Below, piece after piece: positions 39,197-43,991 of a DNA stretch of 64,000 nt. The DNA is from Bacteroidota bacterium (lineage in GTDB: Bacteria > Bacteroidota > Bacteroidia > UKL13-3). The stretch is from contig JAZKBU010000006.1 in assembly GCA_040388375.1 (NCBI GenBank), positions 333,909-397,908 of the forward strand, in the 5' to 3' direction. Under the pieces are notes generated by a model, which was given only the letters and a program-made list of their open reading frames with translations, ran no database searches and was not told where the DNA came from. How positions within the stretch are numbered: the stretch's first letter is position 1; every line of letters begins with the position of its first letter. Both the position numbers and the translations under genes were made by a program.

Positions 39197-40910
<1,714 letters not shown>

Positions 40911-40919
40911 TGAAACATT

Positions 40920-41195
40920 TTAAACAATAGCGAAAATATCGCTTTCACGCATGATTAAATATTCTTTACCATCAACAGTAACTTCGGTACCTGCGTATTT
41001 ACCATACAATACGGTATCGCCTGCTTTTACTGTCATAGGCTCATCTTTTTTGCCTGCTCCTGCTGCAACAACAATTCCTCTTTGTGGCTTTTCTTTAGCT
41101 GTGTCAGGAATAATAATTCCTCCTACTGTTTTTTCTTCTGCCGGTGCTGGCTCCACCAACACTCTGTCGGCTAATGGTTTTAATGATACTGACAT
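40920..41195 (-). CDS. groES: Co-chaperonin GroES
   Basis: Lid of the GroEL chamber, 91 residues. The protein runs from [20 protein letters not shown] through [13 protein letters not shown] (the mobile loop) to [13 protein letters not shown], the standard family ending. The frame extends 29 residues further upstream to an ATG at 41282, but family length and the start [11 protein letters not shown] set the start at 41195. A CAAATTTA at 41293-41300 (TAAATTTG on the coding strand) is a possible -7 element, giving a leader of about 90 bases, but a well-spaced TTG was not found. Confidence 0.97.
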
Positions 41196-41770
41196 ATTTA
41201 TTTTTTTTATTAAATTTTGTAGAAAAATATAAATCAATGATGATTTATGTTTTGCATTTACACACTTATTGTGCCATTGCATATTAGTATGACAAATTTA
41301 CGACACCTAAAAACAAGTCACCTTGCCCCCATTTCAGAAAATGGATATAACAAGCTGAATTTCTAACATTTAAACACAATACAGTCGAATTAAATAATAA
41401 TTATTTTGTCGTTAATCAGCTAATAGATTTAATGATAAAACGACATAAAAGCCGATTTTCATTCACAAATTAGTCTCCCTATTATTCATAAAAAAATTAT
41501 ACTTATAAGCCATAAACACCTCATTTTAGGCCTATTTTCCAGCACAATGTGCACCAGAATGGTTTAAAAATATAAAACCGTCTCTGTCAAAAGGCAAAAA
41601 ATAGGCAAATCGCACTACATTTGCACTGGAAATTTTATATAAACAGCGTGTAAGAAAGTTTTGTCCAGTGGCTATTTAAAATAAAATTTTAATACCTAAG
41701 TGCAACCTCCATTTGACGTAACTTGACTTATATTTAAACACCCTAAACAAATTCAACTTTAAACCAATAC
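41196..41770. other. Long intergenic region between groES and the ECF sigma gene
   Basis: 575 bases with no convincing gene. Contents: a possible groES -7 box (41293-41300); an inverted repeat TGTCGTT (41407-41413) / AACGACA (41439-41445); a short palindrome GCACA-A-TGTGC (41542-41552); TACATTTG at 41616-41623, a perfect -7 box without a TTG at the right distance, which may drive the sigma gene; and CACTGGA (41624-41630) / TCCAGTG (41664-41670), which could form a stem in its leader. Confidence 0.55.
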
Positions 41771-42334
41771 ATGCATCTTTCCATTGAAGATATGATTTCT
41801 GGTTGCAAAGAAGGAAATCGTGTGGCGCAAAAAGCAATGTACGATTACTTCGCATCAAAAATGCTAGGCGTTTGCATGCGTTATGCAAAAGACCGTGCAG
41901 AAGCAGAAGACATGTTACAGGAAAGTTTTATTAAAATATTTCAAAATTTACATACATACAGGGGTGAAGGCAATTTTGAAGGATGGGTAAGACGTGTGGT
42001 AGTATTTAATGCTATTAATTTATACAAACACAGGCTACGCCATTTTAAGGAAGACCTTGATGTACGTGATTACGATGCAAAATATGATGATGATGTGGTT
42101 TCGAAAATTTCGGTAAAAGAAATTTTGGCGTTTGTTCAACAAATGCCTGACGGATACAGATTAATTTTTAATCTTTATGCGGTAGAAGGATTTACCCATA
42201 AAGAAATTAGTGAACAACTTGGCATTGCTATTGGAACAAGTAAATCGCAATACTCACGTGCGAGAGACTGGATGAAAAAAGTATTATGTCAACATTACGA
42301 AATAATGAATGAACCGTTTGAAGAACCAAAATAA
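41771..42334 (+). CDS. ECF-type RNA polymerase sigma factor
   Basis: A 187-residue sigma-70 family protein of the extracytoplasmic-function group: region 2 about 20-90 (YAKDRAEAEDMLQESFIKIF binds core and the -10 element) and region 4 about 125-178 (LPxGYRLIFNLYAVEGFTHKEI, then the helix-turn-helix IAIGTSKSQYSRARDWM). Sigma region 3 is absent, as expected. Its last 26 bases overlap the next gene, which encodes a membrane-spanning protein with an anti-sigma-like N-terminus. The pair most likely forms a signalling unit. It has a leader of about 140 bases with possible structure. Confidence 0.95.
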   Translation: MHLSIEDMISGCKEGNRVAQKAMYDYFASKMLGVCMRYAKDRAEAEDMLQESFIKIFQNLHTYRGEGNFEGWVRRVVVFNAINLYKHRLRHFKEDLDVRDYDAKYDDDVVSKISVKEILAFVQQMPDGYRLIFNLYAVEGFTHKEISEQLGIAIGTSKSQYSRARDWMKKVLCQHYEIMNEPFEEPK

Positions 42335-43991
42335 CTTTGAACAAAAGCTAAAAGAGCAATTTGACAATTTCGAGGCTAAACCAAATGAGGCCTTGTGGGA
42401 GAGTATTGCCCAAAATTTACCGGAAGATAAATTTGAAAAAAGCATTGCTTCAAAACTTAGTTCATTAGAAACTACTCCCAGCCAAAATGTATGGTTAGCC
42501 ATTGAGAAAAAATTACCACTCATCGCTACCCAAATGAATAAAAAGTTGATTTATTTATGGACCGGTGTTGTTTTAACTTTTGGCTTAATAGCCGGTTATT
42601 TCATTAGCCAGTACACCAACAATATAAATAACTTAACTGCTGACTTAACGCATCCGGAAGCATTTGTTTGGTTAAACAACAAAACGTCTGATGCCAATGC
42701 ACAAACCATAACCGAAACTACTACAACCAGCAGTATTCATGCTCCAACTAGAACTACTCATGAAAACACGTTGGCTTTAGCGGAGAAAAGTCATTCAGGT
42801 AACAGACCTAATTTATCAGCACAATCACATAATAATAGTACTGAAATAGCAAACACAAACGTTGCCTCTGTTAGAGAAAATGAAAACCTACCTACTAGCA
42901 ATGCTATTGTTTCACAAGGGAAGCACAACGTAACAAATGCTGCAACAACTGCTACTGAATCTAACACTATTCCACAAAACAACCAAAATACAATTGCCAG
43001 CACACTAGGCAAAACAGGTGCTTTAGAAGGTAATAATACCGCTAACAGCAATGATGAACCTATTGCTAAAAAAGAAACCAACAACAACGATAAAACACTT
43101 AGCAATAATACGCCTACAATAAGTTCAGAAAACAAAGGCAACAGTGATATTTTGGCACAAAATAAAATTGACTCAACACCTGTAGCTGAAGTACTAACTA
43201 ACAAAGTAGATACCGCTACTGAAAGTACCCAAGTAAAAAGCATGGCAAACAACCAAGCAAGTGAAAATGACTATACTGGACCTTCACTAAAAAAAGAACG
43301 TTTAACTATTTTAGCTTATGCAGGTTTTGCCTTTGGCAATATGTATTATACTGCAGGAAACAATCAAACCAATGCAACTGCTAATATTAACCTACGCGAA
43401 AAAACAGAACGCTCTGCAAGCGATATTAATGGTGGTTTCTTAATTGGATATGACTTGAATAAACGTTTTACGCTTAGCTCCGGAATTATTTTAGCTAATT
43501 TTAAACAAACGCTTAGTTATAGCGTTGAAGCACCAAAAAATAATTACCCTACTAAGCAAGGTGAAAATTTTCAACACGGTGCCGATACTATTACTACAGG
43601 AGGTTCATACACGGCTGAATTAAAATACTCTTATACTGAAATACCTTTATTTATTACTTATAAAGTATTTGAAAACCAAAAATTTGAATTTGCTTTACAA
43701 TCAGGTTTGGGCTTGGGTATTATTACCGGTGTAAATACTTATATTATCAGCACTGACAATATTGGTATTTATGAAGTAAATGGAAAAGACGATTTCCCTA
43801 AAGTTAAAAACACGCTGTTCTTTACTTTTCAGCCACAAATAATGTACAACTTACCTGCTAATCCTGGCATTTCGATAGGATTTATGCCTACTGTAAAAGC
43901 AAGTTTATCTAATATTATTAACGATGAAAGTTGGATAAAACAGTATCCTTATTCATTTGGGTTAAACGCATTTATCAGAAAAAGGTTCTAA
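42309..43991 (+). CDS. Envelope-spanning protein: anti-sigma-like domain, membrane helix, linker, outer-membrane barrel
   Basis: A 560-residue protein with no signal peptide. Residues 8-72 are two copies of a helical motif of about 32 residues: FExK..xxL/F..xEA/TxP...xxW/xxI...LP (Trp30 and Trp62). Residues 79-100 form one membrane helix (LIYLWTGVVLTFGLIAGYF). Residues about 101-323 are rich in Asn, Thr, Ser and Ala with no fold. Residues 324-560 look like an outer-membrane beta barrel: alternating strands such as LAYAGFAFGNMYY, GGFLIGYDL, LSSGIILANF, and a final strand ending in FIRKRF, with C-terminal Phe. Overlap with the ECF sigma gene suggests that the first part binds sigma. An anti-sigma factor that reaches the outer membrane is the simplest reading. 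Confidence 0.8.
   Translation: MNRLKNQNNFEQKLKEQFDNFEAKPNEALWESIAQNLPEDKFEKSIASKLSSLETTPSQNVWLAIEKKLPLIATQMNKKLIYLWTGVVLTFGLIAGYFISQYTNNINNLTADLTHPEAFVWLNNKTSDANAQTITETTTTSSIHAPTRTTHENTLALAEKSHSGNRPNLSAQSHNNSTEIANTNVASVRENENLPTSNAIVSQGKHNVTNAATTATESNTIPQNNQNTIASTLGKTGALEGNNTANSNDEPIAKKETNNNDKTLSNNTPTISSENKGNSDILAQNKIDSTPVAEVLTNKVDTATESTQVKSMANNQASENDYTGPSLKKERLTILAYAGFAFGNMYYTAGNNQTNATANINLREKTERSASDINGGFLIGYDLNKRFTLSSGIILANFKQTLSYSVEAPKNNYPTKQGENFQHGADTITTGGSYTAELKYSYTEIPLFITYKVFENQKFEFALQSGLGLGIITGVNTYIISTDNIGIYEVNGKDDFPKVKNTLFFTFQPQIMYNLPANPGISIGFMPTVKASLSNIINDESWIKQYPYSFGLNAFIRKRF

Follow-up and report, generated by a model that had tools for sequence, protein, structure and literature searches.

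A Dma-type partner with two copies of a short putative sigma-binding module, predicted to span both membranes, beside an ECF sigma gene of a Bacteroidota bacterium

In the 64,000-nucleotide stretch of DNA analysed here (the window; contig JAZKBU010000006.1, positions 333,909 to 397,908), an ECF sigma gene overlaps a gene whose predicted product runs in one chain from a cytoplasmic domain to an outer-membrane barrel, which raises the question of how such a partner might hold its sigma factor and let it go. The 560-residue partner is, we consider, probably an anti-sigma factor of the Dma type. It is predicted to reach across both membranes and would grip the sigma factor encoded by the adjacent gene through two tandem modules. 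The sequence-only reading of this DNA had allowed that the family might already be described, and rightly so: both the layout and the control that it exerts over a sigma factor have been published for Dma1 and Dma2 of Bacteroides thetaiotaomicron (available excerpts of PMC13088901), and the layout also for Phocaeicola vulgatus (available excerpts of PMC9308784). What looks new is the N-terminal motif as a countable module, together with an outer head that varies among barrels, T9SS sorting signals, and PorP/SprF domains.

The same reading had described the 26-base overlap, a duplicated helical motif at the N-terminus, one membrane helix followed by about 220 unstructured residues, and a C-terminal barrel ending in Phe. 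The two open reading frames and the two motif copies of about 30 residues are confirmed (Table 1), prediction bears out the helix and the disordered tether, and structure prediction gives an eight-stranded, OmpA-like barrel whose Pfam match lies below threshold. A chain reaching from the cytoplasm to the outer membrane is thus supported as a prediction. Three trivial readings were rejected: a chance overlap of reading frames by the conserved pairing, a C-terminus other than a barrel by structure prediction, and a chance origin of the motif duplication by 0 of 1000 shuffles. In the model of the studied partner by itself, residues 1-80 reach a pLDDT of just 44-56, and the partner matches no ASDI or zinc-binding anti-sigma profile at E ≤1 in Pfam and NCBIfam, libraries that lack the ASDI profile of the literature.

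Table 1. Features of the sigma/partner locus, in positions of the window
Feature	Position	Strand	Remarks
ECF sigma gene	41771..42334	+	187 aa
Dma-type partner gene, likely anti-sigma	42309..43991	+	560 aa; 26-base overlap with sigma gene
Putative sigma-binding motif, copy 1	42330..42419	+	residues 8-37; 41.8 bits against motif profile
Putative sigma-binding motif, copy 2	42426..42515	+	residues 40-69; 34.6 bits against motif profile
Predicted single membrane helix	42543..42608	+	residues 79-100
Disordered tether	42627..43289	+	residues 107-327, pLDDT <50
Conserved juxtamembrane stretch HPxAFVWL, predicted periplasmic	42645..42674	+	residues 113-122
Predicted 8-stranded outer-membrane barrel	43302..43988	+	residues 332-560, C-terminal Phe
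Promoter-like site GCAACC-N15-TTGAC	41702..41727	+	43 nt before sigma start codon
groES, divergent neighbour	40920..41282	-	
groEL	39197-40831		

A search for the two-gene pair in relatives, proposed as a check by the sequence-only reading, found the partner in 21 of the 40 genomes searched (10 of 10 in the genus, 11 of 14 in the rest of the family, and 0 of 16 in other families), with the sigma gene adjacent in all 21; a second homologue search returned the same 60 proteins. The partner is split across two contigs in one genome (G002), and locus L052 comprises the sigma gene and the start of the partner. Because the genes overlap and stay together, both proteins are likely to be made together. 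In a 30-sequence alignment of the clade, column identity is 0.87 and 0.78 for the two motif copies, 0.79 for the barrel, and 0.48 for the linker, and Trp-30 and Trp-62 are near-invariant. The juxtamembrane stretch HPxAFVWL has a mean column identity of 0.89, on a level with the motif copies, as against 0.48 for the linker, and its position outside the membrane helix would fit a docking or cleavage site. A cleavage site would bear on an alternative that we take seriously while leaning somewhat against it, namely that the tether is cut, leaving barrel and clamp separate at rest or after the signal, with the sigma factor freed by stepwise proteolysis and no need of a pull from the barrel. Regulated proteolysis is the common release route for membrane anti-sigma factors, and a long unstructured linker with a conserved stretch would suit a protease. 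Against this, the linker itself is poorly conserved, the distant relative P0060 shows no HPxAFVWL, and the partner has no known protease or cut site.

As portrayed in the available text of PMC13088901, Dma proteins comprise an N-terminal sigma-binding domain, a membrane helix, a long disordered tether, and a C-terminal barrel, and their genes adjoin an ECF21 sigma gene. The studied partner has these four parts, the helix, tether, and barrel by prediction and sigma binding as predicted in the relative L087 (below), and its gene likewise adjoins an ECF sigma gene. B. thetaiotaomicron Dma1 and Dma2 were compared by description, and kinship through the motif was traced in other Bacteroidales, where four partners encoded beside ECF sigma genes carry it once each within their first 110 residues. 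Scores are 26.7 bits in P. distasonis (L241), 26.5 bits in B. finegoldii (L243), and 26.4 bits in P. massiliensis (L244), with a weak 10.0 bits in a dma2-like protein of B. finegoldii (L242). The gene order at L242 (sigma, barrel protein, DUF4943, DUF4858, nitronate monooxygenase) is the published das2-dma2 order. The L243 pair adjoins a NigD-like gene and may be a dma1 locus, since nigD1 is a reported Dma1 target in the same partial source (PMC13088901). Moreover, the studied sigma factor is 36-42% identical to the sigma factors neighbouring the P. distasonis and B. finegoldii partners. The studied partner differs from these Bacteroidales relatives in having two motif copies rather than one, and its locus differs from Dma loci in lying beside groES-groEL, with no NigD or PUL genes noted adjacent, and in having a promoter-like site of its own. 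The L242 and L243 records (NZ_OY725915 and NZ_OY725958) are B. finegoldii "plasmid" entries that resemble misfiled pieces of chromosome, and L242 adjoins the housekeeping genes queF, nadC, and rlmH.

A comparable pair in P. vulgatus, M0N98_03761/03760, is induced upon exposure to BcpT and, like the studied pair, consists of an ECF sigma factor followed by an anti-sigma factor in which an inner-membrane segment is combined with a predicted outer-membrane barrel. The suggested signal is stress on the cell envelope, and a similar EcfO pair of B. fragilis is cited there (PMC9308784, as excerpted). In that system O-antigen is described as lengthened and NigD genes as raised, among other effects, whereas our site search in the genome under study found no O-antigen or NigD-type targets.

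Support for the anti-sigma role claimed earlier is provided by the motif common to Bacteroidales Dma-type partners and by predicted docking in L087, a single-motif relative whose sigma factor, read through the stop codon into the N-terminus of its partner, was folded as one chain. In this model (mean pLDDT 89.4, pTM 0.85), the motif blocks (residues 191-236) have pLDDT 88-98, both motif helices are placed at that level except for the first two residues, and the sigma factor takes up a closed arrangement of regions 2 and 4. Over both domains, this predicted sigma structure superposes on RsiW-bound SigW (4.8 A over 155 residues), NepR-bound RpoE (5.1 A over 148 residues), and CnrY-bound CnrH (5.7 A over 152 residues), as opposed to 21-28 A for polymerase-bound ECF sigma factors; RseA-bound sigmaE and MucA-bound AlgU can be matched over just a single domain. 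Nor is the closed arrangement confined to anti-sigma complexes, because SigG1, which is filed as a sigma factor alone, matches likewise (4.4 A over 160). Among the 50 structure matches listed, aligned ranges end at or before residue 203, and the motif itself is therefore hardly covered by the structure comparison. In the predictions the module has two short helices per unit, as does class II CnrY, whose two helices wrap sigma regions 2 and 4; tandem repetition of CnrY is not known.

That the partner might instead recruit the sigma factor to the membrane or act as its co-activator seems to us very improbable. The modelled arrangement is unlike that of polymerase-bound sigma factors, and deletion of dma1 or dma2 acts by releasing the cognate sigma factor, with loss of dma2 raising vesicle production via das2, according to the excerpted PMC13088901.

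How many sigma molecules a partner of the inhibitory kind could hold may depend on its motif, which we counted N-terminal to the membrane helix at a cut-off of at least 5 bits, using a profile built iteratively from the same sequences; the best of 590 shuffled N-termini reached 4.6 bits with the final profile. The 140 loci with a readable pair gave 118 unique pairs after removal of 22 duplicates, all of them chosen by likeness to the sigma factor or its partner, or as sigma loci of the genome under study, and hence no fair sample of ECF pairs. The motif is present in 104 of these 118 pairs, a set drawn by likeness to the studied sigma factor. None is scored in 14 pairs, one copy in 73, two in 25, three in three, four in two, and five in one. 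These counts are rough: one partner (L067) has four copies by eye and two by score, in some of the zero-motif pairs the start codon seems to have been misjudged (L072, L106), and low-scoring second copies in L079 (5.2 bits) and L067 (7.6 bits) are doubtful. The clade of the window supplies 18 of the 25 double-copy pairs. In addition, 13 pairs with at least two copies lie outside the family, and copy number has therefore likely changed more than once. In the studied partner and eight others, the motif matches no Pfam family above that family's cut-off; matches below it look like chance (Nudix_hydro, E 0.33, on copy 2 of the studied partner; Cactin_mid, E 4e-4 and 20.5 against 23 bits, on the last copy of L086). 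Two of the long frames (L085, L067), examined as possible Dma3-like fusions, proved to be upstream read-through.

Two modules could allow one partner to hold two sigma molecules, or one more tightly. We find it possible, if a little short of an even proposition, that both copies act on a single sigma factor, for example on region 2 and region 4, in which case duplication would alter affinity and not stoichiometry. Such a division of labour has a precedent in the known anti-sigma domains that touch both sigma regions with separate helices, as set out in the available part of PMC7406223, but the single copy of L087 is already placed with confidence in both helices of the model, and copy numbers of up to five exceed the faces that one sigma factor seems to offer.

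The outer heads were scanned in 88 of the 94 complete motif-bearing partners, six near-duplicates from the genus being excluded. The families found are OMP_b-brl_2 (24), CHU_C, a T9SS type B signal (23), PKD_4 (14), OMP_b-brl (7), and PorP/SprF (1), where a single protein can belong to more than one family and many partners among the 88 have none of them. The five-copy partner (L115) has as its head a PorP/SprF barrel of the type IX secretion system (E 1.9e-19), as does a four-copy partner (L086; E 2.7e-13) that is open-ended and falls outside the 88, and a three-copy partner (L085) carries a CHU_C type IX sorting signal. Similar variety is present within the genome under study. At L060 the motif and membrane helix are joined to OMP_b-brl_2 (E 2e-7), at L058 they come with no named head, and at L062 (G000:C19, partner at about 1984-2904) a sigma gene is followed by motif, membrane helix, and CHU_C (E 5e-14); no motif was scored in the L059 partner. 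The single L062 copy, at 10.3 bits, is clipped by the start codon that the script chose. The L062 partner is apparently anchored in the inner membrane and yet carries an export signal for an outer-membrane machine.

These counts and heads bear on a broader proposal about which we are evenly divided: the two-helix module of about 30 residues may be a short anti-sigma domain of the Bacteroidota's own, which in one to five copies could hold several sigma factors and which one helix and a tether would join to interchangeable heads (OmpA-like and PorP/SprF barrels, type IX sorting signals), forming a modular switchboard that would wire outer-membrane assembly and export directly to transcription. 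Literature searches found no description of a module repeated one to five times and fitted with a barrel, PorP, or T9SS head, and the 2024 Dma1 paper, the 2021 ECF classification, and the 2013 EcfO paper could contain one. If the proposal is true, the module would help to explain the scarcity of class I anti-sigma domains in Bacteroidota; the share of ECF sigma factors with such a domain nearby is only 6% in Bacteroidetes, compared with 32% for all phyla, and other anti-sigma classes were proposed for Bacteroidetes by the same authors (PMC7406223, in the part available). With the studied pair, the Dma family gains a probable doubled-module member, likely from beyond the gut Bacteroidales of the published cases. 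A module so short makes both sigma stoichiometry and signalling from the outer membrane to genes testable with small peptides.

On the reading of the partner as a Dma-type anti-sigma factor, the module would clamp the sigma factor with regions 2 and 4 kept closed, and the predicted helix and tether would connect this clamp to the OmpA-like barrel in the outer membrane. Altered barrel assembly, a change in the state of the outer membrane, or a surface ligand might then weaken the clamp, either directly or through cutting of the tether. Freed sigma factor could drive its own operon and a few exported or outer-membrane proteins, two of them with type IX signals. We infer the outer-membrane location of the barrel, release upon a signal from the envelope or the cell surface, the holding of two sigma molecules by each partner, and the regulon. 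In FecR/PupR-type cell-surface signalling, the state of the outer membrane is likewise reported to an ECF sigma factor, there through a separate TonB-dependent receptor, whereas in the studied partner barrel and anti-sigma part form one chain.

The candidate regulon was drawn from a promoter-like pattern. Of the 21 family loci, 18 carry RCAACY-N15/16-YTGAC in the 150 nt upstream of the sigma gene, where shuffling would predict 0.01, at a distance of 12-55 nt from the start codon. All 18 double-motif loci have it, as against none of 102 other loci, which encode 97 distinct sigma proteins, and the family loci without it (L047-L049) are all single-motif. The copy upstream of the studied gene probably serves the sigma factor as its own promoter. 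In the genome under study, the strict form GCAACC-N15/16-TTGAC is found at six places and its reversed pattern at seven; the number of strict sites is not above chance, but their position is, with four of the six lying 25-49 nt before a start codon compared with 0 of 7 for the reversed pattern (Fisher p 0.02), or three of five when the sigma site, from which the pattern was defined, is left out (p 0.045). Apart from the sigma site, these precede the genes for two proteins with T9SS type A signals, an M43 protease (49 nt) and a 431-aa protein (25 nt), and for an outer-membrane-barrel-like protein whose Pfam match is below cut-off (31 nt). The other two of the six fall inside genes.

Ten genomes of the genus contain 38 matching places. 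Of the 37 that were read, the script's rule puts 12 before a start codon, whereas the reversed pattern gives 0 of 23 (p 0.002, for places that are not independent); without the five sigma sites, the figure is 7 of 32 (p 0.03). The protease site is present in nine of the ten genomes. The gene itself was read behind it in six, and the remaining three genomes have a 26-mer in common with two of the six. The other two non-sigma target sites were seen in the genome under study alone. These patterns suggest that the sigma factor may control exported and surface proteins, with the M43 metalloprotease as its candidate first target. This metalloprotease (L236, G000:C5:155000-159500) combines a PKD domain with its type A signal.

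The neighbour check covered 22 loci, one of which starts within the partner (L005) and one of which is a partner fragment only (L012); groES lies divergently upstream of the sigma gene in all 17 double-motif loci that reach that far, and groEL is also present in 13. The groES-groEL genes are thus conserved divergent neighbours throughout the double-motif clade.
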